NCBI GenBank assembly: GCA_021647705.1
Contig: JAKIUF010000023.1
Span: 1 to 64,000 of the forward strand
Direction: 5' to 3'
Origin: Gammaproteobacteria bacterium
GTDB lineage: Bacteria > Pseudomonadota > Gammaproteobacteria > SZUA-152
Length of the DNA: 64,000 nucleotides
Position numbers and translations under genes: made by a program. This document shows positions 47,187-63,709 of the stretch, piece after piece. Position 1 is the stretch's first letter. Each line of letters opens with the position of its first letter. A model generated the notes under the pieces. It made no database searches, had not been told where the DNA came from, and was given only the letters and a program-made list of their open reading frames with translations.

Positions 47187-48191
47187 TTATTTAGAATTAT
47201 TGTTATCCTCGTCATGCTCACGGCTTTCATTGCTATTCCAAAGTTTGTTGAAATGCTCTACAAAACTCTTCTGCGCCCCAGCTATTGAGTCAGGCAATAG
47301 AAATGCGCAGTTATCTCGGCTTCTTCCAATAGCGGAAACAACACAAGAAAGAATATCATTATCAATATGAAATGCTATTTGTGCAGGGAAATCATCGTAG
47401 GTCTTAATGCGAACCCGGCTCCCAAACTCCCGCAGATTAAATGACACATTTTCAAGGGCATTTATCAATTCATTCCTGAAAATTCCAACTTTCGTATACC
47501 CAAGCTGTTGAGCGCGATAATTAACAAATATGCTCTGTGGATCAAGCGTAAGCACTCTTAATTCTAGAGTATTATTCTCCTTCATTGCGCTTACAATATC
47601 GCCAATAAATTCATAGCTCAATATAGACAAGTTTGTTTGCAAGATATCTATTTTTGTTTTGGCCCTTAGTATTTTTTGCCTGATAAGCTCATCATTTCTT
47701 TTTGGAAGATAAGGGATTTTTTCTAGGCCAATTTCTATAGTATTGCTGATTTCTCCTTCCACTCTAGCCAAATGTGGATACACTTTATCTGGTAGCTCAT
47801 CTATTTCTTTTTCACCGTATTCAATATAAATAACCCCTTCCATGTCACCGGGTATTTCCTTTTTATCTCTACACAGAATAATTACTTTTCGCCCTGATCC
47901 TCTTGCGTAACCTAATTCATATAAAACATTCGGGTTTTGCCCATTTACATCGACAATACAAAAATTTGATTCCTTAATACAATCAGATACATGTGAATGT
48001 AGATTCTCTCTTTTAAATTTCTCTGTATCAGCACGATATACTCTTATCGGAAAACTGGGATCAATGCCATCTAACCTTTTCAATGATTTGTATACCGCGT
48101 CATTATTTACTTTTACTCCCTTGGGTGTTTCCCGGGTTCCATATGGCTGAATTATGAAACACCTTGCTCGATTACCGTTTTCGATTTCCAT
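47187..48191 (-). CDS. TIR/nucleoside-deoxyribosyltransferase-like protein with C-terminal sensor-like domain
   Basis: 334 residues. N-terminal ~150 residues: CFIIQPYGTRETPK, SDCIKESNFCIVDVNGQNPN, VLYELGYARGSGRKVIILC. This is the pattern of the nucleoside 2-deoxyribosyltransferase/TIR-like superfamily, with candidate catalytic Glu92 in YELGYA. The C-terminal ~170 residues (KTKIDILQTNLSILSYEFIG, ELRVLTLDPQSIFVNYRAQQ, PAQIAFHIDN, FLLPDSIAGAQ) look like the PLD-like DUF5919 type that accompanies effector heads. TIR-like enzymes often degrade NAD+ or bases in antiphage systems, so an immune role is plausible. It stands alone, flanked by decayed DNA. Confidence 0.75.
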   Translation of the reverse strand: MEIENGNRARCFIIQPYGTRETPKGVKVNNDAVYKSLKRLDGIDPSFPIRVYRADTEKFKRENLHSHVSDCIKESNFCIVDVNGQNPNVLYELGYARGSGRKVIILCRDKKEIPGDMEGVIYIEYGEKEIDELPDKVYPHLARVEGEISNTIEIGLEKIPYLPKRNDELIRQKILRAKTKIDILQTNLSILSYEFIGDIVSAMKENNTLELRVLTLDPQSIFVNYRAQQLGYTKVGIFRNELINALENVSFNLREFGSRVRIKTYDDFPAQIAFHIDNDILSCVVSAIGRSRDNCAFLLPDSIAGAQKSFVEHFNKLWNSNESREHDEDNNNSK

Positions 48192-48466
48192 GGATTTATT
48201 CCTTGTAGGTAATATATGTAATTAATGATTAAGATAACACAGCGATATTTTTTATAGCCACTGTTAATTATTAATTAACTTGATATTTATTGAATTTTCT
48301 CTTTAGTATCACCCTGCTTAAGAAAACATCAGAGGTCAGGTCTTTTAATCAAGCAGGAATAGTATCCAATTTCCATTTTGAGTGGCTCAGGCATATTTGG
48401 AAAGATGATTTTTTACCAATTAACGTCAATATTATACTTGACCTATTTTAAGGCTTTAATCATAAG

Positions 48467-49177
48467 CTAAAGATTAAATATTTCCTGAATTTCAGATGTT
48501 GTGAGAGTGCGGCTATATATTCTAACTTCATCTATAGCGCCAGAAAAATATTCACCAAACGAAGGGTTTGATCCTATTAATAGAGTATTAAGACCTTCGT
48601 TTAGCATGCCTTGTTTCTCCATCATAATATCATTTACATATAATTTTATATTTCCTGCTACTTGGTCATACACAACAGCTAAAAATACCCACTCACCTAT
48701 AATTACAGATTGGAATCCAAGTACACCACCCGTCCCACTAAAAGCGGACCATCCATTACCCCCACCTCTGGAATCAATTCCTAAAGAACGATCAAAACCG
48801 GCATTATCGTGAGAAATTACTTGGCGTATTGGGTCTTCACTATCAGCTCTAACCCATGCGGTCATTGTCACTTTAGGTAAAGCACTTGGGTTTATATTAA
48901 CGGGTATAGATATTGAGTCAGATAATCCATTAAATATATACGCACTATCAGGGCTTCCACTTCTATCGGTCGTTAGAGTGGCTCCATCGACTACCCCATC
49001 ATTACTATTTACACTTTCGTCATTGGCATTACCATTGAAGGGATAATATGCGAGCAGATCGGAATCTATATTTTTGTTTTCTGTTATGGGGTTACTGTTA
49101 TCACCACCACCACCACCACCACAACCAGTTGCAAGATAAGCCGTAGCAATAATAATTAGAATTTTAGAATATTTAAT
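48467..49177 (-). CDS. LamG-domain lipoprotein, probable ATT start
   Basis: About 236 residues. The frame opens after a TAA at 49192-49190 and contains no ATG, GTG or TTG before the lipobox; ATT at 49177-49175 is 7 nt behind GAGG and gives a good signal peptide (KYSKILIIIATAYLATGC, Cys19), followed by Gly5 and a LamG/concanavalin-like domain (LAYYPFNGNANDESVNSNDG, MTAWVRADS, FSGAIDEVRIYSRTLTTSEI). A shorter reading from ATG 48871 would cut the domain in half. Such lipoproteins bind glycans or other proteins at the surface. Function unknown. Surrounding DNA is AT-rich. Confidence 0.75.
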   Translation of the reverse strand: MKYSKILIIIATAYLATGCGGGGGGDNSNPITENKNIDSDLLAYYPFNGNANDESVNSNDGVVDGATLTTDRSGSPDSAYIFNGLSDSISIPVNINPSALPKVTMTAWVRADSEDPIRQVISHDNAGFDRSLGIDSRGGGNGWSAFSGTGGVLGFQSVIIGEWVFLAVVYDQVAGNIKLYVNDIMMEKQGMLNEGLNTLLIGSNPSFGEYFSGAIDEVRIYSRTLTTSEIQEIFNL

Positions 49178-49848
49178 TTTCTTTCCTCGTTATAGTTATG
49201 CTTTCCAGAAATTTAATATAAAACAGATGGTTCCATTGTGAGATTTATGGAAATGAAAATATAAAGCTATAGTCGAGGTTAAAGTGACGTGGTTAAATAC
49301 GTCACCTTCAGCTTTGATGCATGTTATTTATATAAAACTCTAGTGGGTGTGAGTATATCAGCGGAGCCAGCGCTCATAATCACAAATATTACCGTTAATG
49401 CTCAACAAACTATAGGCGCATAAGGTTATACTTATATTGCCGTCAGTTATTTTCTTCCCTTGCTGGTAGGATGGAGAAATACGTCATTTTTATTCATATT
49501 ATACTTGCCTATAACATACGCGAAATTTGATCCGCAAAAGTGCCATCAAGTTCTTCTATTATTCCAAAAAATACTATAGCCCAGTGGTTTTAACGATTTT
49601 CTGATACCAGCCTGTGTCGGTATGACGATGAAGGGCGATAGGGGAAGATGGGCAGGGCAGGGTGTATTCTGCACTAAACTGAACAATGAATGATGGGGCC
49701 GTGGTTGGTGATGAATATTTTGCTGAGTGATCAGGCAGGATGATTGATGCGTAAGATATGCCTTATCTATTATCTCATTGCTATTTCATAACTACGTGGT
49801 TTCGTGGAGGATCAATGAGGCAGACTCCATCGATTTTTTAAATATTCT
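49178..49848. other. 670-nt region with gene remnants
   Basis: No intact gene. A 45-codon frame ending at 49423 resembles a remnant at 46.2 kb. The stretch 49785-49803 (CATAACTACGTGGTTTC) resembles 52193-52211 at the 3' end of the RND gene, with another shared patch at ~49627 and ~52118 (GGGCGATAG.GGAA.ATGGG), suggesting a small duplication. Confidence 0.5.
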
Positions 49849-50397
49849 TCAGGAAACGCACATTACAGGACTAACATTTTTACTGGGTAGTTCTATGGAA
49901 TATCTGCCCGTTTTATATAGGGTCATGAACAGGCCGGCCTTGCAGTCGAAGTTAAAGATTTGTGTAAATGCATCATAACGCGATAAATCGGATTCATTGT
50001 CACCAGTATATTTAAGAATGCCAGTTATAATGATTTCATTCAGATTATCATTATTCAAATCTTTAAAATCAATTTTAAGTAAACCGCCTTCGTAAACAAG
50101 ACCGTCATCATGTTGATCAAAAATTCGTAAATTCAGGTTATGAATTTTTAGAGTGCCATTGCCTTTGGGTGTGCCGTCCAGTGTGACATTGAACTGTAAT
50201 TTATTGCCAAGTTTTAATATGCGTTGTGTTTGGCTGTTGTTGTTAATCAGTTGCGTGAAAAGATTATTCAATGATGAAACTACAAGAATTTTATCATCAG
50301 GTTCAGAACAGGCGAAGATTGAAGTTGCCAGCGTAATAACCCCTATAGTTGCAATGCTCAGGTTTTTGAGCCACTTATGAATATTAAGTAGTTTCAT
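49849..50397 (-). CDS. Secreted or lipoprotein of unknown function
   Basis: 182 residues. A hydrophobic leader (LSIATIGVITLATSIFAC) with a possible lipobox ending at Cys30, followed by SEPDD. The mature part is beta-rich (KLQFNVTLDGTPKGNGTLKI, LNLRIFDQHDDGL) and contains DLNNDNLNEIIITG, similar to calcium-binding VCBS/FG-GAP-like turns. No family recognised. Small Cys-rich C-terminus (FNCDC-like FDCKAG and VMCVS). Confidence 0.75.
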   Translation of the reverse strand: MKLLNIHKWLKNLSIATIGVITLATSIFACSEPDDKILVVSSLNNLFTQLINNNSQTQRILKLGNKLQFNVTLDGTPKGNGTLKIHNLNLRIFDQHDDGLVYEGGLLKIDFKDLNNDNLNEIIITGILKYTGDNESDLSRYDAFTQIFNFDCKAGLFMTLYKTGRYSIELPSKNVSPVMCVS

Positions 50398-50673
50398 TAT
50401 GTTTATGGCTTGGAAGTTTGTGTGTTAATGCCAAGCTTTATTTCCGGTGATGCTAGCATGGCTATTGCTGTGTTGACAAGGCTGTGATATTGGGGTGCTA
50501 TCTCTTTTTATATGCTGCATAAAAGGGTAGCGTCCCCTTATTTTCTGCCTTATCTATCTGCCCAAGGCAACTTGGGAAGCTTTCAAATCTACCCGCGATT
50601 TTGCCAGCTATTTTATATAGTTTTTTACATCCGAAACCATATCTGAAGACTAACAAAGAACTTCATATTATGA

Positions 50674-50883
50674 TTACCCGGTTTTGTCCAGAGACACGGA
50701 TCGAAGTATGGTCTTCAGAGTTATTAAGTCGAGTGAAGAAGTAGAATCTTTTTCAATACGATCAATTTCTGCCTTAATTGTACTTGTAAATAAAGTTCTA
50801 TCAAAATTAGGTTGTTCAGTTAAGGCTTTGACAATTGTTATTAAAGCCACCGTCATTTCACTTGCGCTAGTTTGATCAGACAT
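50674..50883 (-). CDS. Small hypothetical protein
   Basis: 69 residues; a good GAAGGA site lies 5 nt before ATG 50883. Predicted mostly helical (SEMTVALITIVKALTEQPN, IKAEIDRIEKDSTSSLDLIT). No signal peptide or motif recognised. Gaps on both sides (~275 nt) hold nothing recognisable. Confidence 0.6.
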   Translation of the reverse strand: MSDQTSASEMTVALITIVKALTEQPNFDRTLFTSTIKAEIDRIEKDSTSSLDLITLKTILRSVSLDKTG

Positions 50884-51156
50884 TTTTATCCTTCTCTTTT
50901 TTCATTATCTATTTTATAGCTAGTTCTAGACTGATTGTTATCACGCTCGAAAAATTCTTCGTTCATCCTAGTTGCACTTAATTAAAATATAATTCTAGTG
51001 TGCGCTAATTGGTCATTTCTACTTTCCCTGTGGGACTATTAGTCCCCATTAGAGAGTGTGCGTCAAATCAGAGTAGGTTTACAAATCAGGGTAGGTTTAG
51101 TCTGACCCCTTTTGTCGTATTAGCTTTAAAATATCCATGTGGAAATTTTGGTTAGA

Positions 51157-51843
51157 TTATTCTAGCCAACGAAAACCAAAATGCATATTATACTTAAACA
51201 ATTTGACTATTTTTTCTCGCTCTTTTTTAAGTCTTGCAGGAGAAAATTCTTTATCTGAGAGAAATAAAAACTGCTCTCTTTTGATAATTCCGCTAGGTTC
51301 AAAATAATATTTCCTAAATTTATTCATTATATCTTTATGTTTTGAAGGTAAGTTGAAATTTCTTTGATTCATCATCCACATTACACTTAACAAGGAAACC
51401 CATTCAGCATGCCTACGGTGGAATGGCATTACAGCAGGTTCGTATAACTTCTGACCTCTGATATGGTATACATGATTTTTAACCAACAACCAATCTTCAA
51501 TTACCTGTGGCCCATTAAGAAAAAGTAATGGCCGTATGGGGACTGAACCCAAAAGACATAGCGCTCCTACTTGTTGTAAAGATTTTCCGAGTAAGTAGAC
51601 ATCTTTATCTGTAGGGTTTATATTTCCGTAGGAATTCAGCTTGCTTTTTAAAGACTCTCTAGTTTTACTAATTTCCTCCCCAAAATAATTCAATTCTAAT
51701 CGTTCTTTCAAGTTACTTATTTGCCAAATAGAATATTCCTTGCTGTCACGCAGACGTGAAAAAACCTCCCTAACTAGAAGGACAGTGATTGCTGTAACTG
51801 CCGCAATTGCGGCAACTTGCAAATTTTGAATAGTTACACTCAT
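51157..51843 (-). CDS. Membrane-anchored protein of unknown function
   Basis: 228 residues. One N-terminal membrane helix (LQVAAIAAVTAITVLLV) and a soluble, basic helical domain (SIWQISNLKERLELNYFGEE, LLVKNHVYHIRGQKLYEPAV, HAEWVSLLSVMWMMNQRNF). No known motif; the architecture resembles anchored DUF4760-like proteins, but I cannot assign it. AT-rich accessory neighbourhood. Confidence 0.7.
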   Translation of the reverse strand: MSVTIQNLQVAAIAAVTAITVLLVREVFSRLRDSKEYSIWQISNLKERLELNYFGEEISKTRESLKSKLNSYGNINPTDKDVYLLGKSLQQVGALCLLGSVPIRPLLFLNGPQVIEDWLLVKNHVYHIRGQKLYEPAVMPFHRRHAEWVSLLSVMWMMNQRNFNLPSKHKDIMNKFRKYYFEPSGIIKREQFLFLSDKEFSPARLKKEREKIVKLFKYNMHFGFRWLE

Positions 51844-52199
51844 ATATTTTTTGAAAATCTAATTTATTAGTATCAAGGCCCACTTGCGTTGCTATCCACT
51901 GTATTGAACGAAGAATCAGGCAAGTTTGCCCGATAATCATACAAAACCGGTCAATTTGCCCTGATATCTTGATATTGATGGACTATTAAGGCATATCCGG
52001 CCTATTACCTTCGCCCAAACCCTATTCCTCAGGATTCACCCTGTCAACTCAAGATTCAGGGAAAAACCTGTTGCCGGAAATACGCGATTTGATACACCGT
52101 CTCCACTATTTTACATTGAAGGGCGATAGAGGAAAATGGGAGTTACGAGGCAGTAATATTTTGTCACTGTTTTATGGTTGTTTTATAACTATTTCATAG
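51844..52199. other. Gene-free stretch downstream of the RND exporter
   Basis: No gene seen. It contains a sequence patch shared with 49.6-49.8 kb. No clear terminator for the biosynthetic cluster was found. Confidence 0.5.
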
Positions 52200-54527
52200 C
52201 TACGTGGTTTCCTGTTCACGTTTTAATGCCGGAAGTTGCCTGCCAATGGCCAGTCTCAGCAGTTGTGGCAGTAGCCATAAATCTAGCAACAGGGCCAGCA
52301 CGACCGCCAGTGATACAAAGGCTCCGAATTCGGCACTGGGAGAAAAGTCTGATGTCATCATGCAGGCAAAGCCGCCCACTATAATAAGTGTGGTGTATAC
52401 AATGCTGCGGCCAACTTCGTTAATTGAAGTTGCGATAGCCATTTCTTCACTCTGTTTCAGGTTTTCTCGTACCCGCATTAACAGGTGCAATGTGTCATCA
52501 ATAACGACGCCCAAAATAATGCCGCCGATCAGGGCGGTGGCGATGTTGATGGTAAAACCTAGCAGGCCCATGATGCCCAGCACGATGGCCAGTGGCAGTC
52601 CGTTGACGACGATCCCTAATAACGCCAGTTTGAAGGAGCGGAATATCATCAGCAAAATCAGGCTTAAAAATACTGCCATGATTAATAGTGATTGTATTTG
52701 GGTGGTGCTGATTTGCCGGTCCATGTTGGCCCATAGTGTGGTGGTGCCGGTGAGGTAAACCTGCATGTCTGATGGTAAGTGCTGTTGTGCCAGGGCCATG
52801 ACTTCTTCGTTAAATGCGTCGAGTTCTTTGGAGCTCATGTAGTCGGTGAGGGCGAGCAGTTGGCTGCGGTCGCGGTCTTGTGTCAGCAGGTCGGTGATGT
52901 CGTCATTGCCGCTCAGTTCTGCCAGAAATAATAGCTGGCTGATGGCTTCAGCGGGGTAGCTTGTTAAACGATCCGCAGCGGGTGTTTCGGTTGTCGCTTC
53001 AACATCATCGTTAAAGGCTTTGTCGATTTCACGGACCAGGGCGCTGGGGGAGAGGAGTTTAATAATCTGTGGCAGGTTTTCTACCGCCTGTTCAAAGCGG
53101 ATGACGGCCTGGAAGTAAGGTGCCATTTCGTAGGTGTTGCCTTCGGGGTAGACCAGTCCGATGTTGATGGGGTTTTGAGCAAAGCCTGCACCGGTTATTT
53201 TCTGATAGGCTTGTGATACCGGGACATCATCGGCAAAGAATTCACTGTAGTTGGTGTCTGTTTCCAGTTGGAATAAACCACTCAGGGGCAGGGTCAGTGC
53301 GATGATGACGATCACCCATGTACGACCTGTCCAGGGTGTTGTCAGTTTTTGTAACCAGGGCCAGCTATTGTTGTGGCTGGACTGCGTTTTATGTTTTTTC
53401 TGCCAGAAAATGTGCAGCAGAACAGGTGCAACGGTGATGGAGAGAATCCACGCCAGAATAATACCCATGGCGGCAAACAGGCCGAGCTGGAATACGGGGG
53501 TGACGGTGCTGAGCGTCAGTGAGGCAAAACCAGCGGCGGTGGTCAGCATGGCATAAAACCCGGGGCGGATGACGATGGACAGGGTTTTGCGCAGGGCGGC
53601 TTCTGTTTCATGGGTACGGTGGAGGCGGTGAAAGGTGTTGATGACATGCACAACGCTGGCGACACCGAGGGCGGCCATGATGGTGGGCAGCATGACGGTC
53701 ATCATGTTGTAGGGCAGTTTTAAAAAGGCGATTAATGCCATGACGGGGACGATGCTGCCGATGATGACGGATAACAGGGTGACAAGGTCTCGCCAGTTTT
53801 TAAACACGAGCAAAGCGAAAATGAATAAAAAGAGGGAAATCAGTATATAAAAGACGATCACGTCGTGTTTGGAGGCCCGGTTGAGTGCGGCATTGACGAC
53901 GGTGGTGCCTGCGAGGGCGCTGTCTGTGATGCTGTCGTATTCATTAACAATGTCGGTAATGCTGTCTATCAGGGTGATGCGGTAGGGAGTGGGGTCGTGT
54001 AACAGGTTGTCATTTTGAATGAGTACGACGGTGTGACGGTCGCTTTCTTTTCTTAGCAGGTTGTTTTGGAAAATCGGGTTGTCGTGCAGACGTTGGCGCA
54101 GGGCTGTAATTTCCTGTTTTGATACGGGTTGTCCATTTTTTGCCGGGTATAGTGTGGTGTAATCCAGGTCGCCGGAGTCATTCATGTTGTTGTCACGCAC
54201 ATTGGCGATGGAGGTGACTTTCACGACATGGTCCAGTGCTTCAATGCGTGTGGTGATGGCGGCAAGGTCTTGTAGAAATCCGGCGTCAAATATGGATGAC
54301 GTCTCCAGCATCAGTAATGTCCATTCCTGCTCACCAAAGGCTTCGTTGTGCGCGTTGTATGTCAACAGTTCCGGGTCGTCGGTTTGAAACCATATGCCAA
54401 CGGAGTTATCGATCCAGGGTGTGTTGTCGGCCATGCGGAGGCCAAATGCGCTGAGGGCAAGGGTAATGCCCAAAATCCACAGGGCCAGAACAAGCATACG
54501 CTTGCGCAATAATAATGATGCAAACAT
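52200..54527 (-). CDS. RND/MMPL-family exporter
   Basis: 775 residues from ATG 54527, with AAAGGA 7 nt upstream. Inner-membrane helix near the N-terminus, large periplasmic loop, membrane block (FYILISLFLFIFALLVF, LLSVIIGSIVPVMALIAFL, ALGVASVVHVINTFHRLH), second periplasmic loop, and a second block (LLIMAVFLSLILLMIFRSFK, GLPLAIVLGIMGLLGF, GVVIDDTLHLLMRVRENLK). This duplicated 6-helix design with ASVVH and VVIDDT motifs is the MMPL/HpnN-like group that moves lipids. It is the last gene of the cluster after the LolA-like protein, so its cargo is probably the cluster's lipid product. Confidence 0.9.
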   Translation of the reverse strand: MFASLLLRKRMLVLALWILGITLALSAFGLRMADNTPWIDNSVGIWFQTDDPELLTYNAHNEAFGEQEWTLLMLETSSIFDAGFLQDLAAITTRIEALDHVVKVTSIANVRDNNMNDSGDLDYTTLYPAKNGQPVSKQEITALRQRLHDNPIFQNNLLRKESDRHTVVLIQNDNLLHDPTPYRITLIDSITDIVNEYDSITDSALAGTTVVNAALNRASKHDVIVFYILISLFLFIFALLVFKNWRDLVTLLSVIIGSIVPVMALIAFLKLPYNMMTVMLPTIMAALGVASVVHVINTFHRLHRTHETEAALRKTLSIVIRPGFYAMLTTAAGFASLTLSTVTPVFQLGLFAAMGIILAWILSITVAPVLLHIFWQKKHKTQSSHNNSWPWLQKLTTPWTGRTWVIVIIALTLPLSGLFQLETDTNYSEFFADDVPVSQAYQKITGAGFAQNPINIGLVYPEGNTYEMAPYFQAVIRFEQAVENLPQIIKLLSPSALVREIDKAFNDDVEATTETPAADRLTSYPAEAISQLLFLAELSGNDDITDLLTQDRDRSQLLALTDYMSSKELDAFNEEVMALAQQHLPSDMQVYLTGTTTLWANMDRQISTTQIQSLLIMAVFLSLILLMIFRSFKLALLGIVVNGLPLAIVLGIMGLLGFTINIATALIGGIILGVVIDDTLHLLMRVRENLKQSEEMAIATSINEVGRSIVYTTLIIVGGFACMMTSDFSPSAEFGAFVSLAVVLALLLDLWLLPQLLRLAIGRQLPALKREQETT

Positions 54528-54662
54528 GGTGGTTTCCTTTGTTGTTTTGTAACTGCTCATCCTGATTTTTTAAATATAAGTCTGAAGCTGGTTTTGTAAG
54601 TATTTGGTTTTAGACATAATGATTATTCCAGTGCCTGGTTAATATTTATTACTGAGTATTTA

Positions 54663-54805
54663 ACACAGAGGTCACGGAGACGCAGAGACACAGAGAAAAA
54701 CACTAAAAACTCTGCGCCTCTGTGTCTCTGCGATCTCTGTGTGACAGACACCATGTTTTCTGTTTCCATATTCTGTGTCACACACTGAATATCGGAACTT
54801 CATTC
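54663..54805. repeat. 'CTCTGCG' palindromic repeat, subfamily B copy 2
   Basis: ACACAGAGGTCACGGAGACG and CTCTGTGTCTCTGCGATCTC hairpin with flank TGTGACAGACACCATGTTTT and ACACACTGAAT shared with 36528-36662. Lies between the LolA-like and RND genes of the cluster. Confidence 0.85.
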
Positions 54806-54842
54806 GTTACGAGTACAGGCTGATTCCTCAATGGCTGTTTTT

Positions 54843-55637
54843 TTACCGGCTTCGCTTCAGGGCGTTTGTGCTGAAGTCATTTTCCGAGAAGCCGTTGCTA
54901 TAGGTGATGTCTGTCCATGTCATGGTGGTTGACCGGCCATTTTGATGGTTGAGCATGGTCATAGTGAGTGCCCGCCAGAAACGATTTATATATTTTTTGT
55001 AGTCTGTGAGTGTCAGGGTTTTGAGCAGGCTGCCTTTTACATCGTAATAGTCGATTTGATGGAGGATGTAGTCTGTTTTGTCGATATAGGCGAGTTGGTG
55101 CTGGTAGCCGGAGTTTTCAAACAAGGGTGTCATTTTGACGACATAACAGGGTTTTTCATTGACTGTGCTGTCTTTGATGTACTGGTACCGGTATTTATCA
55201 AGTTCTATGGAGGTTAAGTCTTCATAGCTGAATTCGCTGGAAACAAAGGGGCCGGACTGGTTGCTGCTGGCAATACGTTTTATCCGTTTGAAGGCGGGCA
55301 GGTAAATCCATTGCAGGTCATGGTCTTTCAGAGTGTGGGACAGAATCGCCGTTCCACGGATGGTGCGTGGGCGGTCAAATACAAACAGTCTTTTTTCACC
55401 GTAGTCTTTGTTTTCCAGACTGCGTACGGCCATGTGACGGTCAAATTGTTTACCGTTTTTTTTTCGGATTACCATGGTAACTTCTGCTTGAAAATCACCA
55501 AAGCCGTTTTCCCGGCTGGTGAATTGTTCCATAATTTCCCGGCCCTGGGTTTCCAGTTCACTGGCCAGGGAGTATGGGGCGAACAGGGTCATAACCATGA
55601 ATATGCATGTGGCAAGTTGTTTGTTAAATAACATCAT
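54843..55637 (-). CDS. Outer-membrane lipoprotein-sorting protein (LolA/LolB-like fold)
   Basis: 264 residues with signal peptide (CIFMVMTLFAPYSLA). Mature part: REIMEQFTSRENGFGDFQAE, RHMAVRSLENKDYGEKRLFV, LPAFKRIKRIASSNQSGPF + VSSEFSYEDL, and the tail TWTDITYSNGFSENDFST. This is the widespread 'outer membrane lipoprotein-sorting' family found beside RND/MMPL pumps. It has no lipobox, so a soluble periplasmic lipid carrier is likely, moving a lipid from the exporter toward the outer membrane. Confidence 0.9.
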   Translation of the reverse strand: MMLFNKQLATCIFMVMTLFAPYSLASELETQGREIMEQFTSRENGFGDFQAEVTMVIRKKNGKQFDRHMAVRSLENKDYGEKRLFVFDRPRTIRGTAILSHTLKDHDLQWIYLPAFKRIKRIASSNQSGPFVSSEFSYEDLTSIELDKYRYQYIKDSTVNEKPCYVVKMTPLFENSGYQHQLAYIDKTDYILHQIDYYDVKGSLLKTLTLTDYKKYINRFWRALTMTMLNHQNGRSTTMTWTDITYSNGFSENDFSTNALKRSR

Positions 55638-55711
55638 TGTTTTTGTGCAGTAATTTCTCAGTTATGTTTCTGATGGGGTTTCAGGGTTGCCATAAAATAA
55701 TCAGTTTTTTT

Positions 55712-55736
55712 GTAGGGTGGGCAATGCCCACCCTAC
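55712..55736. repeat. 25-nt palindrome between ACP and LolA-like genes
   Basis: GTAGGGTGGGCA and TGCCCACCCTAC pair across one base. The T-run precedes the hairpin on the plus strand, so it is not a canonical terminator for either direction. The core resembles the RAYT REP. Confidence 0.85.
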
Positions 55737-55750
55737 GAAATTATGATTAT

Positions 55751-56008
55751 TCAGACAGGCATGGCGGTATGGACATATTTGGCCAGTGCATCCATGGTTC
55801 TCAGTTCCAGTACAAAAAGCTCAGGGGGAATGTCTAATGAAAAATGCTCATGCAGAATTTCCTGGATATAAACCGTTGTCATGGAGTCAATCAGGCCGTG
55901 TTCAATCAGGTCGGCAGAAACATAAAGGTTGGGAGGGGCATCTCCGAAGACTTCATATTCTTCACACAATGCCATTAACCTGGATTTAATATTTTCGATG
56001 CTGTTCAT
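55751..56008 (-). CDS. Free acyl carrier protein
   Basis: 85 residues. Phosphopantetheine attachment site Ser42 in EHGLIDSMTT, with helix I (IENIKSRLMALCEEYEV) and helix III-IV (ILHEHFSLDIPPELFVLELR) of an ACP. Diverged from fatty-acid AcpP (DSM, not DSL), so a dedicated carrier for the cluster product is likely. It lies 243 nt behind the second AMP ligase, across an inverted-repeat element. Confidence 0.9.
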   Translation of the reverse strand: MNSIENIKSRLMALCEEYEVFGDAPPNLYVSADLIEHGLIDSMTTVYIQEILHEHFSLDIPPELFVLELRTMDALAKYVHTAMPV

Positions 56009-56024
56009 TGTCTGTTTCCTCCTG

Positions 56025-56232
56025 GGTGCATAGCCGTCAGGCTAAGCCGGGTAGGGTGGAACAAGCGCAGCGGTTCCATCAAACGGGAGGTGAGTCGTTG
56101 TTGCATGTTGTTGTTCCTTATAGCCTGTTGGTGGAACCGCTGCGCTTGTTCCACCCTACGATTTTACGCTGTGTTGAATAGAGAAACCTCGGCTCCATTC
56201 GCTTCCAGGACAAGGCTTAGCCTGACGGCGAT
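56025..56232. repeat. GGTGGAACC inverted-repeat element, copy 2
   Basis: Left arm AGGGTGGAACAAGCGCAGCG + GTTCCATC (56053-56080) and right arm GGTGGAACCGCTGCGCTTGT + TCCACCCT (56130-56157); one arm mismatch. Outer ends ATAGCCGTCAGGCTAAGCCG and TTAGCCTGACGGCGATGCC are also inverted, and TGTGTTGAATAGAG is shared with 19480-19775. Fills the ACP-ligase gap. Confidence 0.88.
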
Positions 56233-56251
56233 GCCCCTGTATGCATGTTGC

Positions 56252-58093
56252 TTAAATTGCCCGCGCTTGATCCAGTCGTTTCAGTTCAAAGATAAATTTG
56301 ATTTTGTGAGTGGGGGTACGCTCCAGTGAGCGCGGTAAAATAAATATTTTATCTTTGCTTAGTCTTGGGGTGATGTTGGCAATAGATTGCGCGTAGTCGA
56401 TGGCGGCTTCAAACCGTTGCCGTAATGCGGCATCTTCGCTGACGCCGGTGGAGATGTCTTTTTGCCAGGAGGGGTCTTTGTGGATGCGTTTGTAATCCGG
56501 GAAGAGATAGACGCTGAGAAAATCATCGTCCGGCTGAACGCGTGTGACCAAAGCATCTTTTATAAAAATACTGCGTACCATCAGATTGGACAGGTATTGC
56601 GGGTCGATGTAGGTGCCATCTTTCCATTTGGTCAGTTCTTTTTTGCGTCCGACAAGATGCAGGAAGCCTTCGTCATCAATCCAGGCCAGGTCGCCGGTGG
56701 AGTAATAGCCATCTTCACCCAGCACTTTTTCCTGATGGTTGCCGAGGTAGGAGTGCATGATGGTTGGGCCTTTGACTTCGAGCATGCCGACTTTTTTGGG
56801 GATGCCGGGTATACGTTCTTCGTTGACCAGACGATAATCAAGGATGTCGATGATGCGACCACAGGAGCCTGCTTTTAATTCGTTGAGACGGTTGCGGGAT
56901 ATAATGCCGCTGCATTCTGTTGCGCCGTAGATATCAATGACGGTGACGCCCAGTTTGCCGAAGGCTTCAACAATGCTGCCATCCAGTTTCATGGATGATG
57001 AAATGCCGTAGCTGAAATAACCCCCCAGTTTGTTGCGTAGCAGGATGCGCATGGCGGTGAGTTTGGCTTTGTCCAGGGTGCCGATGTCGTACAGTTTTTC
57101 GTTACGTTCTATGCTGATCAGGTGCTCGTAGAGTTTTTTAAGCACGGGTTTGTTTTTCATTTCTTCGAGGATTTCTTTCAGCAGGTAGATCCAGAATTTG
57201 GGTACGGCCATGAGCACTTTGATTCGGACCCCCAGTTTTTTCAGTTTTTTTATTTCGTCTTCCAGTACGTCATCGTCGTCGGGTTCGCGGGTAAAATAGG
57301 TAACAGAAAAGCCGCGTGATTTTGTCACCAGAAATTCAACAAGGGTAGCAATGTGGGTATAGGGTCCAATGTTGAGCAGTTCTTCATTGACGCGAAGGTT
57401 GATGACATCAATGGCTTCGTTAACTTCGGCAATAATATTGCTGTGGGTGATTTGTACAATTTTAGGCAGGCTGGTGGTGCCCGAGGTGGGGTAATGACCT
57501 AGTATGCAATCGTCTTCCTGCAAGTGTTTGCTGGGCACAAGCGTGTCGGCCGGTTGTTCGGGCAGAATGCTTTGTAAGCTGAGTTCACCTTCCGCTGGCC
57601 GGGTGTGTTGATGGTCGGCATCTTCGAAGACATCACACAGGTCTGCGACAATGATTTGTGTGTCGATGGCCAGTTCTGCCAGCAGGTTGCGCATACGTTC
57701 CAGCTGTGGCCGGGAGACCAGCATGTAGTCCGGTGGATTCAAGGTGAGCAGGTGTTTCAGTTCGATGTCATTGGTTTTGGTGTCGAGCGGAAATAATGTG
57801 TTGGCCCGGTAAAAAGTGGCCATGGCGATCATGTCCCATTCCAGGCGGTTTTTACAGAAGGTGGCAACGACCTTGCGTTCGATATTTTTCTGCATGAACC
57901 AGGTACACATGCGGAGAATATAGTGATGGTATTCGGTGAAGTTCAGTTCCCGGTAAGTTGATCCGGTGTCATAACGAATAGCTGAACGTTTGCCGTAGGT
58001 GGGTAGTTGTTGGCCCACAATATCGGCGACACTGCTGATGCCGTCGAATGCCTTGAAGTTGTCTTTTCTTTTATTGGTTTTAAACATGAACAT
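56252..58093 (-). CDS. AMP-forming acyl-CoA/acyl-ACP synthetase-like ligase
   Basis: 613 residues. ANL-superfamily adenylating enzyme: P-loop YPTSGTTSLPKIVQITH, YGATECSGIISRNRL (A5), STGDLAWIDDEGFLHLVGRK (A7-A8), and KKELTKWKDGTYIDPQYLSN with the motif found in long-chain acyl-CoA synthetases. It probably activates a fatty acid or the aminated product for thioester or amide formation. It follows the aminotransferase-reductase gene by 15 nt and precedes the ACP gene. Its acyl substrate and acceptor are unknown. Confidence 0.88.
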   Translation of the reverse strand: MFMFKTNKRKDNFKAFDGISSVADIVGQQLPTYGKRSAIRYDTGSTYRELNFTEYHHYILRMCTWFMQKNIERKVVATFCKNRLEWDMIAMATFYRANTLFPLDTKTNDIELKHLLTLNPPDYMLVSRPQLERMRNLLAELAIDTQIIVADLCDVFEDADHQHTRPAEGELSLQSILPEQPADTLVPSKHLQEDDCILGHYPTSGTTSLPKIVQITHSNIIAEVNEAIDVINLRVNEELLNIGPYTHIATLVEFLVTKSRGFSVTYFTREPDDDDVLEDEIKKLKKLGVRIKVLMAVPKFWIYLLKEILEEMKNKPVLKKLYEHLISIERNEKLYDIGTLDKAKLTAMRILLRNKLGGYFSYGISSSMKLDGSIVEAFGKLGVTVIDIYGATECSGIISRNRLNELKAGSCGRIIDILDYRLVNEERIPGIPKKVGMLEVKGPTIMHSYLGNHQEKVLGEDGYYSTGDLAWIDDEGFLHLVGRKKELTKWKDGTYIDPQYLSNLMVRSIFIKDALVTRVQPDDDFLSVYLFPDYKRIHKDPSWQKDISTGVSEDAALRQRFEAAIDYAQSIANITPRLSKDKIFILPRSLERTPTHKIKFIFELKRLDQARAI

Positions 58094-58108
58094 AATGTTT
58101 GTTCTCCG

Positions 58109-61081
58109 TCAGGCTGATTTTTTCAGTTGAGTGGTTGGGGTCAGGCGCTGGTCGTCGAGTTTCAGGTCGCCCAGGGCAAAGCCGTGTAATTCAGCCAGTT
58201 CTATGGTGCGGTAAACCTGCACAGCGGTGAGTGTACCTTTGCAGAATGAGTGATTCTGGCCATCGAAGCCGAGCAAGAGTGTTTCGGCCATGCAGCCATA
58301 GGCCAGTCCGTCGCCTGGCATGCCCACAAAGTTGATTTGTGAATCTTCCGGCAGCTTGGCCAGCCCGCCGTCGAAGGCCAGTTGTGTGTTGTCGTTCTGG
58401 TTGAACTGGCGGCTGAGGTTAGAGGGTATGGATGTGCAACAGACGATGGCATCGGGCTTGACCATGTCCGGGCGAATCAGCTCGCGATCAGTGGAATTGG
58501 TCGCGGCAATAATCACGTCAAATTCATGCAGTGAATCCAGGTTGAGTTGCAGCGGTATACCGTTATCAAGAACCTCGGCTTCAATCATTTTGCTCAGGTT
58601 TTTGCCGGTATCCGATGCGGGTGCCGTGTGTTTCAGCGAATCGGCAATGGCGTATAAGCCGGTTTCCGGTGTTGCCAGTTCCAGCTGTTGATAGATATGT
58701 AGGCCAATACCACTGAGCTGCGTTTGCGCCAGTGTAATGCCGGATTGGCGTTCCTGATAAATAGCCTGGGCGATTTCCTGCAGGCATTGTTGGCGCACGT
58801 AGTCGAGGCGGGCCAGGCTGCGTTCACCGGGACGGCCAACCAGACATAACTTTCCGACGTTCAGTGCGATGACTTGTGACACCACCATACCGATGTTGCC
58901 ACTGGCACCGACGACAGCAACGGAGGCTTTGCTCAGATCCAGTGCTTTACTGGCGGCTGCCTGCATAATGCCTTGTATGGTCAATGCGGTGGTGTAGGCA
59001 TTGCCAGTGGTGGTGGCGACTTCGTAGTCGTTGAGAGTGAGGCCGTTTTGTGTGGCGATGGAAGTGAATGCACCGAGTCCCACCATGGATACCGGGATGT
59101 TGTCATCCCCCAGTTCCCGCGCGACGGTGACGGCGTCCTGTATTTTGTCCTGCACTTCCTGGGTGAGGGAATGGTTTTTTTGTTTGGTGATGTAGTCCGG
59201 CATGTAGGGAACAAACACCAGATTGTTTTCAATCGTAAAATCATTGGATTTAATGTAGGTGCTTTTGACATGCACCGGTTCCAGGAAACGGCTGATCAGG
59301 TTCCACCAGTTTTCCAGATGTTCTGCCTGCCATTCATAATGATGAAAAGAGGGGAAATAATATTCCACCAGTTTGTCCAGCGTGGTGGGGTGTACGATGA
59401 AACCGACACGCGAATCGATATGGCCTTTTTCTTCGACGACGGGCCAGCGTACGGGCACATGTTTGGAGTTTTTGCGTTCATCATCAGTCACCGGTTCTCC
59501 TAACAGGTGGGCAATCAGGCAATACTCATTGTTGTTTTCAATAATTTCCAGCACTTCGCGCAAGCCGTCTACAAAGCGGTCTATCTCTTCCCGGATAATG
59601 GTGGCCGGAGGTTGAATGCGCAGAATGGACAAACGGCTTTTTCCAGGATTGCCTTTCAGCATGGTGGTGAGTGGCGCAAGAATCCGTGTGTTGTGGTATT
59701 CCAGCAGATAGCTGGCCACCAGTAATGACAATACGCCCTGTTTGCCACTGGCGCGGAAAAAAGGTGAACGATCAAGCAGCGGGGTTAATTCCACACCCAG
59801 CATCAAACCCCGGCCACGCACATTTTTTATCAGGGTCGGATATCGTTCCTGCAAGGTGTGCAAGCGGTCCAGCAGGTATGCACTTTTATCTTTGACCCGT
59901 TTGAGCATGGCGTTGTCATCACGGGTCAGGATGTCCAGTGTTTTACTGGCGATCCTGGCGGAAAAATCATCTTCGGCAAAGGTGGAGGTGTGCAGAATGC
60001 CAAAATCGTCATCATAGATGTTGCGGTGAATCAGGGTTGCTCCAATTTTGCTGATGCCCCCTCCCAGTGCCTTGCTGAGTGCAATGTATTCCGGTTCGAT
60101 CTCGGCCAAAGGCGTGTCGTGATAACCGAATATTGCACCGGTGCGACCACAACCGGTCTGGATTTCATCGATAATCAACGGAAGCGGCTGTTTGCTTTTC
60201 AGTTCTACAAGGTGCGACAACGTGGCATCGGGCACAGGGCGAATACCGCCTTCACCGAGAACCACCTCCAGTATCATGGCGATGACGCGGGTGATGCGTA
60301 CCGGTCGCAATTCAATGCGCGTTCCGGTTAATACCGGGTAATAAAACGTGCTGACCTGTTCATCCACGATTTCCGTGATTTGTTCCGGGCGATGAATATC
60401 CACATACGCGGGCTGGATGGCGGACAGCCCCTCAAAGGCTTCCCGATAGGATTTATTGAAAGTGACTTTTAATGCCGATGAGGTTTTTCCATGAAAGGCA
60501 CCTTTGAAGGCAATCATCACCGGGTTGTTCTGGAACAGCTCAAACTGGGCCAGATTGTATTCATCCAGATCATCCCGAAAATCGATCAAATCCTTGTTGT
60601 CGCCGGGCAGTTCCACTTCAAGTTGTTCGCGCTCTATTTTGTAATACAGATCATTCAGTACCCGGGTCAGTCGTTCATACTCACGGCGCACTTTATCGAA
60701 CTGAACCTTGTAGGCGTGTTTGACCGCCGCTTCGATACTCTCTGCACCGCTGTTACTGAAGTTGACACAGTAACCTTGTTGAGAGCCTGTCAGTTCACTG
60801 AGGCGTTGAGCCAGCTGTGCCGATTCTTTGCGTATGGAACCCTGAGCATTGATGGCTACACCCTGCGCCAGAGCACTGATGGCTTCCGCCACAATTTCCG
60901 GGTGATTATGTCCCAGTATGGTGCAGCCGAAACCACCCACCAGATCGAGGATTTTTTCCCCTGAATCCGTTTGCAGATAATTACCTTCAGCCCGGGAGTA
61001 CGTCTTGTCCAGTTTCAGAGCTTGTAAAAGCTCGGTCAGCTTGGGTCTGCAATGGGTTTTATATTGCTGCACGTTGTTCAT
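58109..61081 (-). CDS. Fusion: class III aminotransferase + acyl-ACP-reductase-like dehydrogenase
   Basis: 990 residues. Residues ~1-490: PLP-dependent class III aminotransferase (LVGGFGCTILGHNHPEIVAE, NFSNSGAESIEAAVKHAYK, LIIDEIQTGCGRTG, PLP Lys337 in YIALSKALGGG, TFAEDDFSARIA), with an unusual ~50-residue helical insert after ~130. Residues ~560-990 resemble cyanobacterial long-chain acyl-ACP reductase: GLGAFTSIATQNG, TTTGNAYTT, NAD(P) loop GASGNIG at 725-731, and YGCMAETLLLGFDG, where Cys930 aligns with the acyl-thioester cysteine of that family. Acyl-ACP would become aldehyde, then amine, in one polypeptide. Its start overlaps the upstream ligase by 23 nt. Confidence 0.88.
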   Translation of the reverse strand: MNNVQQYKTHCRPKLTELLQALKLDKTYSRAEGNYLQTDSGEKILDLVGGFGCTILGHNHPEIVAEAISALAQGVAINAQGSIRKESAQLAQRLSELTGSQQGYCVNFSNSGAESIEAAVKHAYKVQFDKVRREYERLTRVLNDLYYKIEREQLEVELPGDNKDLIDFRDDLDEYNLAQFELFQNNPVMIAFKGAFHGKTSSALKVTFNKSYREAFEGLSAIQPAYVDIHRPEQITEIVDEQVSTFYYPVLTGTRIELRPVRITRVIAMILEVVLGEGGIRPVPDATLSHLVELKSKQPLPLIIDEIQTGCGRTGAIFGYHDTPLAEIEPEYIALSKALGGGISKIGATLIHRNIYDDDFGILHTSTFAEDDFSARIASKTLDILTRDDNAMLKRVKDKSAYLLDRLHTLQERYPTLIKNVRGRGLMLGVELTPLLDRSPFFRASGKQGVLSLLVASYLLEYHNTRILAPLTTMLKGNPGKSRLSILRIQPPATIIREEIDRFVDGLREVLEIIENNNEYCLIAHLLGEPVTDDERKNSKHVPVRWPVVEEKGHIDSRVGFIVHPTTLDKLVEYYFPSFHHYEWQAEHLENWWNLISRFLEPVHVKSTYIKSNDFTIENNLVFVPYMPDYITKQKNHSLTQEVQDKIQDAVTVARELGDDNIPVSMVGLGAFTSIATQNGLTLNDYEVATTTGNAYTTALTIQGIMQAAASKALDLSKASVAVVGASGNIGMVVSQVIALNVGKLCLVGRPGERSLARLDYVRQQCLQEIAQAIYQERQSGITLAQTQLSGIGLHIYQQLELATPETGLYAIADSLKHTAPASDTGKNLSKMIEAEVLDNGIPLQLNLDSLHEFDVIIAATNSTDRELIRPDMVKPDAIVCCTSIPSNLSRQFNQNDNTQLAFDGGLAKLPEDSQINFVGMPGDGLAYGCMAETLLLGFDGQNHSFCKGTLTAVQVYRTIELAELHGFALGDLKLDDQRLTPTTQLKKSA

Positions 61082-62774
61082 CGTGTTTCCTCACAAGAGT
61101 GACTTGATTATTCATGAAGCGCTTACGGATAACCGCGCGACGTTTTTTTCCACTGGATGTTTTTTCTATTGTTCCTCGCTGGCAGAGTATGATGCGAGTG
61201 ATAATGATATCGCTGACTTCGTAAGCCATGCTTTGTATTGCCTGTTGGTATTCTGTCAATTCACTTTCAGTGCTGCGCTCATTGACTTCAGCCAGCAGTA
61301 TCAGATCAGTGCAGCCGGTCTGCGGATTGTCCACGCCGACCAGCGCGCTGGCACCGGCACGGATAAAGGGCAGTTCTTCAACGGCCATTTCAACATCATC
61401 AGGAATAATATTGCGACCGGCATGATTGATCATGTCGTCCTGGCGGGCATAGAAATACAATTCATGGTTATACATAAATCCGATGTCGCCGGTGAGCAGA
61501 CAGCCATCGATTAATTTCTCTCCGGTTTTTTTCGGATCACGGTAGTAACCCGGTGTTACACAAGGGCTCGTAATTGCGATTTCTCCCAGCATTAACTCAG
61601 GCAGAGGTCTGCCTGCCTTGTCCTGGATCGTGATGTTATGCCGCCAGTCCATTGCACCTATGGCAACCAGTTCAATGGTATTTTTCCCGGTGTCTGGGCT
61701 TGATGTTTCATTGGATGCTTCAACAGGTTCAAGGAAATTTGGGCTGATGAACTTAAAGGTTGTCAGGTTAATGGTTTGTGTTTTTGTGCAGGCTGCCCCC
61801 AGCGTGTTTTCCGCCATGCCATAACCGATATGCAGGTTTTCACGTTTAAAGCCAAGTGGTATCAGGTAATCGTAACAACGACGCACAATGATCGGGCTGA
61901 CTTTTTCAGCGCCGATATACAAATGCAATTCGGACAGGTCGATATCATCCTGTTTCTGTAAGCGTCGCAAGGTTTTCAATGTTGAGGCCAATACGGAATT
62001 GGTATTGAAATTCATATCCACGCGGCGTTGTGACATAAGAGAGAACCAGCGTGGTGGGTTACGCATATAAAATGCAGGAGGAGCCACCATATTATTACTG
62101 CCGGTATAAACGGGAGCCAGCACGCCGATAAAAAGACCCATGTCATGATTGAAAGGCATCCATGATGCCAGTGACTCAATAGGGTGTCCGCGTCGGGAAC
62201 CGATATGGTTATAGTGAATATTTTGTAACTGAGCCATCATCATCTCATGAGTGACGATGACGCCTTTGGGTGCGCCTGTGCTGCCTGATGAAAATTGCAG
62301 AATAGCGATATCGGTAGCTGATATTTTCACGTCATGATCAAATGCAGGTGTGTGGGTTGCTGTTTCCAACAGGGTGTTGATATCGGCGTACTGTTGTTGC
62401 CATAAACCGGGATGCAGTAACACTTCACTGGTAACATTGTCATCAAACAATATCAGACTGAAGTCGCAAACCTCATTGCAATGCTCAACGTAGTCAGCGT
62501 AATGCGTCTGGCGACTGCCCTTGGGGCGCAATGGTACCGCGATGGCATTGAGCCTCCAAATAGCCAGCAAGGCAATCACGTAGTCTGATGAATTTGTCAT
62601 CATCAGTGCCACACGATCCCCTTTTTTTAAACCGTTAGCCTGTAACACCGAAGCCAGTTTGAGTGAGTTATCGTGTAACGCAGATAATTCAAATGAACGA
62701 GACTCCGCAGGGAAATACCATTTTGCGGTGGACCGCGCAGCATGGATGTCCAGTCGGGTTAAAATTGTTTCCAT
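61059..62774 (-). CDS. Fatty acyl-AMP ligase (FAAL)-like enzyme
   Basis: 571 residues. ANL enzyme with features of FAALs that load ACPs: FSSGSTGAPKGVIVTHEMMM, SWMPFNHDMGLFIGVLAPVY, LHIGYGMAENTLGAACTK and LLTGDIGFMYNHELYFYARQ + DDMINHAGRNI. The first gene of the cluster on the minus strand; overlaps the aminotransferase-reductase by 23 nt. Probably activates a free fatty acid and loads the ACP at 55751. No promoter assigned; 240 nt of AT-rich DNA lies upstream. Confidence 0.9.
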   Translation of the reverse strand: METILTRLDIHAARSTAKWYFPAESRSFELSALHDNSLKLASVLQANGLKKGDRVALMMTNSSDYVIALLAIWRLNAIAVPLRPKGSRQTHYADYVEHCNEVCDFSLILFDDNVTSEVLLHPGLWQQQYADINTLLETATHTPAFDHDVKISATDIAILQFSSGSTGAPKGVIVTHEMMMAQLQNIHYNHIGSRRGHPIESLASWMPFNHDMGLFIGVLAPVYTGSNNMVAPPAFYMRNPPRWFSLMSQRRVDMNFNTNSVLASTLKTLRRLQKQDDIDLSELHLYIGAEKVSPIIVRRCYDYLIPLGFKRENLHIGYGMAENTLGAACTKTQTINLTTFKFISPNFLEPVEASNETSSPDTGKNTIELVAIGAMDWRHNITIQDKAGRPLPELMLGEIAITSPCVTPGYYRDPKKTGEKLIDGCLLTGDIGFMYNHELYFYARQDDMINHAGRNIIPDDVEMAVEELPFIRAGASALVGVDNPQTGCTDLILLAEVNERSTESELTEYQQAIQSMAYEVSDIIITRIILCQRGTIEKTSSGKKRRAVIRKRFMNNQVTLVRKHDEQRAAI

Positions 62775-63116
62775 CTTGGCGTGCCTGTCTTTGGTTATGA
62801 TGCTATGTCTAACTGCATCTGGGTACTGAATGACAAGGTAACTTGTCTGGGCTTCAGGTTTGATCGTTACAGCAATACTCTATATAGAATAGAGGTATAA
62901 ACGGTGAACATAAGTATGAAGACAGATATTGCGAAAGTATGTAACTTAACGCCAGGAATTATGTGAAATATTTACATTGTGATGTGTTTGAGCGCCAGGT
63001 GAGCGAGTTTTTTATAGATAAATCAGGGCTTGTAACATAAAATAGATGTTTTTTTGTTCAGGGTATGAGAGGGATGCCATAGCGTGATGGTTAAATATAA
63101 ACCAAGAGTTAGAGTC

Positions 63117-63196: not shown

Positions 63197-63270
63197 ATTC
63201 GCCAGCAAACAACGAACCAAGGTGGGCGTTGATGGCTAATTGACCTTTGAATATATCTTTTTCCTGTTTT

Positions 63271-63398
63271 GGTGGAACCGCTACGCTTGTTCCACCCTGA
63301 ATGATGAAAGTGGTGCTGGGTATTCAGAAAGTTTTTGTTTTTCTTCATTCAACACAATGTAAAAAATTGTAGGGTGGAACAAGCGTAGCGGTTCCACC
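63271..63398. repeat. GGTGGAACC inverted-repeat element, copy 3
   Basis: Arms 63271-63298 (GGTGGAACCGCTACGCTTGT + TCCACCCT) and 63371-63398 are perfect 28-bp inverse copies, arranged in the opposite order to copies 1 and 2. Confidence 0.9.
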
Positions 63399-63709
63399 AT
63401 GACCTTGCATATATACCCGTAGCGTTTGAAATTTAGGCACTCATTGCACGCCTTCTTCATTCCATGGCTGTGTTGAAATTCCTCACAATAGACCGGCTAT
63501 TACTCGTCATTTCGCCTTGCCATGAAATGAATATGACGCACACTGAACACCTAAATCTCAAACGTTACGGGTATACATCCTACAAACTTGATTGTTAAAG
63601 GAAGAGTAAGTTCATGTCGCTCGAATGAGTATTATCACTTTCAAACAAATGATTAATGAATATTTTCGTTATTAATAATTAACAAGGTTGCTTAGCCTGA
63701 CGGCCATGC

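Follow-up and report, generated by a model that had tools for sequence, protein, structure and literature searches.

Organization and conservation of the six-gene operon

The window analyzed here, a 64,000-nucleotide stretch (positions 1 to 64,000 of contig JAKIUF010000023.1) from a gammaproteobacterium of the lineage SZUA-152, carries on its minus strand a cluster of six genes (52200-62774) that probably directs the synthesis and export of a fatty amine. All six open reading frames (ORFs) are open, and together with the Pfam domains of their products they bear out the gene order given in the original prediction, which had been made from the bare sequence. The first gene encodes a fatty acyl-AMP ligase (FAAL)-like protein of 571 residues (61059..62774; Pfam AMP-binding, 8e-54), followed by a 990-residue fusion of a transaminase and an acyl-acyl carrier protein (ACP) reductase (TA-AAR; 58109..61081; Aminotran_3, 1e-63), which has the domain order of PtTamH from the tambjamine pathway and KecF from the koreenceine pathway. 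Downstream lie a second AMP-forming ligase of 613 residues, predicted to be a divergent, non-FAAL enzyme of the ANL type (56252..58093; AMP-binding, 1e-39), and a free ACP of 85 residues with Ser42 in an IDSM motif (55751..56008; PP-binding, 4e-6). The last two genes encode a LolA-like periplasmic protein of 264 residues with a hydrophobic N-terminal leader (54843..55637; PF17131, 8e-56) and a 786-residue inner-membrane exporter of the MMPL/RND family (52200..54560; PF03176, 7.5e-32).

Gene search revealed that the fusion occurs in five of 24 genomes of the order, all within the window's genus (5 of 12 congeneric genomes, the metagenome-assembled genomes (MAGs) without the cluster including incomplete ones), whereas a search of 369 Gammaproteobacteria added one copy, 69% identical, in a genome from another order (G227). 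The complete six-gene set is present in the same order in the congener HyVt-540 (G016, 99% complete) at 77-95% amino-acid identity and in G227 at 54-76%, with the ACP at 95% and 62%, respectively. All six genes are under purifying selection, the ratio of nonsynonymous to synonymous substitution rates (dN/dS) between the window and G016 being 0.082 for the FAAL, 0.061 for the fusion, 0.054 for the second ligase, 0.037 for the ACP, 0.190 for LolA and 0.110 for MMPL. Because the order is kept in two other genomes and the dN/dS values span 0.037-0.190, the six genes are a genuine operon kept by selection, far beyond what chance would give. The make-and-export operon first proposed fits this conserved arrangement, which includes the MMPL/LolA-like pair.

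The FAAL and fusion genes overlap by 23 nt and the fusion and second-ligase genes are separated by 15 nt, both as originally read, and the overlap is conserved in G016 and G227. By contrast, the later gaps, on which the original prediction is silent, are longer in the window (243 nt before ACP, 113 nt before LolA and 282 nt before MMPL), compared to at most 45 nt in both relatives. These long gaps arise because REP/MITE-like short inverted repeats (GTAGGGTGGAACAAGCG..., GTAGGGTGGGCA..., CACAGAGA...), absent from the operon gaps of G016 and G227, sit in them. The ligase/ACP gap (56009..56251, minus strand) holds an inverted pair of GTAGGGTGGAACAAGCG-type repeats, an insertion relative to the 45 nt in G016 and 25 nt in G227, and the LolA/MMPL gap (54561..54842, minus strand) holds a CACAGAGA-type inverted-repeat element, where G016 has 20 nt and G227 about 10 nt. 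Such repeats, including GTCAGGCTAAG, were found in all three operon gaps (54561-54842, 55638-55750 and 56009-56251) and also upstream (63250-63400).

Viewed from spacing, the six genes could be two neighboring units, one for amine synthesis and the other an unrelated generic exporter, as MMPL/LolA pairs are common in the genomes examined and the window gaps before ACP, LolA and MMPL measure 113-282 nt. However, both the order and a spacing of at most 45 nt are kept in G016 and even in G227 of another order, and the long gaps of the window are repeat insertions not seen in either; such a division is thus highly improbable.

The surroundings of the operon are in part common to congeners. The flank on the DoxX side is common to the window and G016, the upstream side to the window and G019, and the ZIP side to G016, G017 and G019, so that a recent horizontal insertion as an island within the genus is not supported. 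In the congeners G021 and G023, where the cluster was not detected, the ZIP-side flank is present and no DoxX neighbor was found in the stretches examined; no empty site is demonstrated. The DoxX-like and MMPL genes are close neighbors in G016, whereas in the window a block of ~6.7 kb (45518-52199), mostly of low G+C (35-37%), lies between them. Within this block, the ORF 47187-48191 weakly matches the TIR domain of the CAP12/Pycsar effector and DUF5919, and is a possible defence gene. Upstream of the operon, a 48-nt element (62934..62981, minus strand) located ~160-210 nt from the FAAL gene is 92% identical to its counterpart in G016 and occurs in G017 and G019 as well, although the intergenic sequence around it is poorly conserved, which makes it a candidate promoter/operator region. 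An Rfam search of the window gave 0 matches, and a promoter/terminator consensus scan showed no excess over shuffles.

Predicted route from fatty acids to long-chain amines

The first ligase matches the NCBIfam fatty acyl-AMP ligase PRK09192 (7e-72, below the curated cut-off), and FAALs such as 7r7f and 3pbk are among its best PDB hits. Its YGMAE and TGD motifs are 110 residues apart, compared to 77 in the second ligase, and this A5-A7 segment, longer by 33 residues, is consistent with the FAAL-specific insertion as judged from sequence. In addition, K543 lies in the A10 motif. Neither ligase has a PP-binding domain, the ACP being encoded by a separate gene, and FAAL plus free ACP could supply acyl-ACP for the fusion.

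The fusion has an N-terminal class III transaminase domain (PF00202, Aminotran_3, 1e-63) with the lysine for pyridoxal phosphate (PLP), and a C-terminus similar in sequence to PigE (4ppm, E 1.2e-11) as well as to an acyl-ACP reductase of Synechococcus (6jzq, E 2.8e-10). When 13 fusions from Gamma-, Beta- and Alphaproteobacteria are aligned, five residues of interest are invariant: the predicted PLP-binding K337 in the SKALGGG motif (codon at 60071..60073, minus strand), D305 of the DE(I/V) motif, G725 and G728 of the NAD(P) motif (GASGNIG at 725 in the window protein), and C930, the predicted acyl-accepting cysteine of the AAR domain (codon at 58292..58294, minus strand). In 6jzq, the residue aligned to C930 is the cysteine in FACFAEAML, and C930 is taken as the likely homolog of C887 in PtTamH and C294 in SeAAR (PMC9594044). 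Because the PLP lysine, the NAD(P) motif and the AAR cysteine are all kept, the predicted conversion of fatty acyl-ACP via aldehyde to amine by the fusion is well supported at the sequence level, in agreement with the chemistry first suggested.

The same transaminase domain could in principle work the other way, as transaminases are reversible and MMPL/RND pumps are able to export toxic amphiphiles; the fusion would then be mainly catabolic or detoxifying, acting on amines or aldehydes, and the pump would confer amine resistance. This assignment is very improbable: a FAAL with an ACP of its own activates substrates for biosynthesis, the fusion has retained its AAR cysteine and nucleotide motif, and PtTamH runs toward the amine with glutamate (PMC9594044).

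Tambjamine biosynthesis had been named as the precedent, and for the chemistry the comparison holds. PtTamA and PtTamH, which serve tambjamine YP1 in Pseudoalteromonas tunicata, carry a fatty acid through acyl-ACP and aldehyde to the amine, as proposed for the window, and PtTamH likewise combines an N-terminal class III transaminase with a C-terminal acyl-ACP reductase that has a GxxGxxG motif and a catalytic Cys. The gene roles assigned to that pathway did not all hold, as TamA is a ligase fused to its carrier domain, TamH a transaminase-reductase (TA-TR) fusion and TamT a putative dehydrogenase (PMC9594044; PMC6667630). Together with PtTamA, PtTamH converts a C12 acid to the C12 amine in one pot, and it does not use C12-CoA (PMC9594044); by this analogy, the FAAL and free ACP of the window would take the place of the ligase-ACP di-domain TamA. 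A fatty amine may thereby be made in the window's organism. Compared to tambjamine, the window has its FAAL and ACP separate, possesses an extra second ligase, and has LolA/MMPL export where tam lists permease/ABC genes (PMC6667630). Bipyrrole (MBC) genes are lacking both from the six-gene set and from the neighboring genes examined, no genome-wide search having been made.

The koreenceine system (kecA-kecK of Pseudomonas) also has a TA-AAR fusion, KecF. A koreenceine-like cluster on the 2.1-Mb replicon of Photobacterium sp. DA100 (L020, 9928-24035) has the 11-gene order of the koreenceine cluster (PMC6498172) and, like the window, ends with a LolA-like protein and an MMPL transporter. The counterpart of KecI has no Pfam match and by our own reading resembles an outer-membrane barrel, and those of KecJ and KecK appear to be a LolA-like protein and an MMPL pump, respectively. 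However, koreenceine chain assembly depends on two type II KS/CLF pairs with an ACP and ketoreductases, and the genes described for it include no fatty acid ligase, whereas the six-gene set has two ligases and, in contrast to L020, no ketoacyl synthase. PigE of prodigiosin biosynthesis similarly joins AAR and class III transaminase domains in one protein, but in the opposite order (PMC10829540). In a tree of the 13 fusions, which does not include PtTamH and from which the nearest known pathway is not claimed, the window clade falls together with the koreenceine-type row of Photobacterium and separately from the Rhodobacterales/Paraburkholderia rows; branches are long and the deep placement is uncertain.

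A published survey lists about 230 koreenceine-type clusters with TA-AAR fusions (PMC10829540). Enzymes of this kind are thus familiar and of wide occurrence, which makes the six-gene set a variant, with its core chemistry and architecture already known from PtTamA/PtTamH and KecF. The original claim that the product is undescribed stands as far as the exact set and the literature searched are concerned, but TA-AAR clusters with export genes have been described (PMC6498172, PMC10829540). The apparently new elements are this minimal set, free of polyketide synthase and pyrrole genes, and its second ligase.

The second ligase, the exporter pair and the likely product

The second ligase has the ANL core motifs and the lysine K597, and lacks the FAAL-type extra segment. 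In a PDB profile search its matches were all generic ANL enzymes (luciferases, 4CL), from which the substrate cannot be told, and a structure model from two sequences (mean pLDDT 30) was not usable. At E<=1e-60, the 369 Gammaproteobacteria contain no relative except the G016 and G227 orthologs, and relatives in plasmid records reach only 22-26% identity. The enzyme thus appears to be a new, orphan and divergent ANL type, seen only with this cluster type among the sampled Gammaproteobacteria. A plasmid cluster of Leisingera sp. M527 (L042, 8456-18014) resembles the window in having LolA-like, TA-AAR and MMPL proteins side by side with a coupled AMP ligase. It differs in that the ligase is fused to the C-terminus of TA-AAR, forming a triple fusion of 1395 residues, and in the additional pabB, aminotransferase IV and hydroxybenzoate monooxygenase genes; it is a candidate cluster for an aminobenzoate/long-chain-amine metabolite. 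This fusion makes it plausible that ligase and amine are directly coupled in function in the window as well, and amide formation would be the most likely role of the second ligase.

The LolA-like protein matches PDB 3bk5 (E 5e-69), and the MMPL protein matches the NCBIfam HAE3 family (3e-47, below cut-off). In the window the PF17131 gene adjoins the MMPL gene, whose product has about 800 residues, in the arrangement of a LolA_like/MMPL module; across six genomes, an MMPL domain lies within 2 kb of 12 of the 19 strong LolA_like loci. The pair is thus a generic, recurrent exporter module. Photobacterium and Leisingera, two other lineages, also have it together with TA-AAR fusions, and the fusion of G110 and that of a second G016 locus have only an MMPL nearby. 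Aryl polyene (ape) clusters similarly bring together an acyl-ACP synthetase, ACPs, a LolA-like protein and an RND transporter. However, in ape clusters ketosynthase, dehydratase and ketoreductase build the polyene, acyltransferases anchor it and no transaminase is present, whereas Pfam detects none of these chain-building genes in the six-gene set.

The original prediction had taken the LolA-like carrier and MMPL pump as suggesting a lipid bound for the outer membrane. This stays as one of two readings, together with a secreted metabolite, but does not follow from the pair by itself, because the pair is generic and is also found in the koreenceine-type locus, whose relatives make diffusible alkaloids (PMC6498172). 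An outer-membrane lipid, such as an N-alkyl fatty amide or an amine-headed lipid, would agree with the two carboxylic-acid ligases and with the lack of polyketide, pyrrole or peptide partner genes in the set, as well as with the proposal that the LolA-like ApeL and the RND transporter ApeM place the aryl-polyene lipid in the outer membrane (PMC8253772). Nevertheless, the set lacks a glycosyltransferase, phospholipid-anchor or LolB-like gene, and we consider this destination rather unlikely. Still more doubtful is the specific form in which the product is an undescribed exported N-alkyl fatty amide, the nitrogen counterpart of a wax ester, with the orphan ligase as an amide synthetase that acylates the fatty amine directly and LolA/MMPL delivering the amide to the outer membrane.

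A small secreted specialized metabolite, namely an antibiotic or signalling amine or alkaloid for which the exporter would provide secretion and self-protection, has a chance approaching even. The characterized TA-AAR proteins serve tambjamine, koreenceine and prodigiosin, the fusion tree places the window beside the koreenceine-type row, and occurrence in 5 of 12 congeneric genomes is expected of an accessory trait, a pattern weakened by the incompleteness of some MAGs without the cluster. Against such a metabolite, the ring-forming and tailoring genes of those three pathways are not in the set.

Altogether, we consider it probable that the six genes form a fatty-amine biosynthesis and export operon, in which the second ligase may cap the amine or make an acyl donor. 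The FAAL-like ligase would adenylate a medium- or long-chain fatty acid and load it onto the free ACP at Ser42; the acyl group would pass to Cys930 of the AAR domain, which would reduce it to the aldehyde with NAD(P)H; and the fused transaminase (Lys337-PLP, with glutamate as the probable amino donor) would turn the aldehyde into a long-chain primary amine. We infer these three steps from PtTamA/PtTamH. The second ligase might then activate another carboxylic acid and cap the amine as an amide, or make a second acyl donor, before the MMPL pump and LolA-like carrier would move the hydrophobic product across the envelope. An exported long-chain amine converted to an amide by the second ligase is the product we favor, its chain length, amide linkage and final location being conjectural. 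Several points weigh against this interpretation. The set has no dedicated condensing enzyme or N-acyltransferase, so the amide step is read solely from the presence of the second ligase; the FAAL and MMPL scores fall below the curated NCBIfam cut-offs; the fusion is likened to PtTamH by domain order and motifs; and the functions of all six proteins are predicted from their sequences.

Other TA-AAR contexts and implications

TA-AAR fusions were also found in other settings. In G110 (L026, 9033-18071), a TA-AAR lies at the end of a 3012-residue protein resembling a nonribosomal peptide synthetase (NRPS), with AMP-binding, condensation, PilZ and PCP domains; MMPL and acyl-CoA dehydrogenase genes adjoin it. 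NRPS proteins do not usually contain a PilZ domain. The second fusion in G016 (L027, 6721-14592), 23% identical, adjoins MMPL, P450 and formyltransferase-family genes. In G056 (L025, 586-11917), the genes after the fusion encode two PPDK-like proteins, one CDP-alcohol phosphatidyltransferase, and CarS-like and UbiA-like proteins, a possible pathway to an amine-headed phospholipid. Paraburkholderia phymatum and G434 have TA-AAR fusions beside LPG_synthase_C genes. Two Rhodobacterales fusions (L021, 14998-17619; L022, 14599-17340) lie near VPLPA-CTERM genes, in Rhodovulum also near the exosortases XrtD and XrtE, where a lipid amine could be an exosortase acceptor. Such a link was rejected for the window cluster, as G016 has the complete set without an exosortase match and the exosortase of the window's genome is on another contig.

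The operon is very compact and appears to hold all that is needed to turn free fatty acids into a long-chain amine or amide for export, so that all six genes could be expressed together and the product detected by mass spectrometry. With the second ligase comes an orphan group of ANL enzymes, among which there may be a new amide synthetase. Moreover, the presence of TA-AAR beside LolA/MMPL in three distant lineages, with differing partner enzymes, suggests a reusable cassette for amine release plus envelope export, which, if true, would help to assign cargo to many uncharacterized MMPL/LolA pairs.

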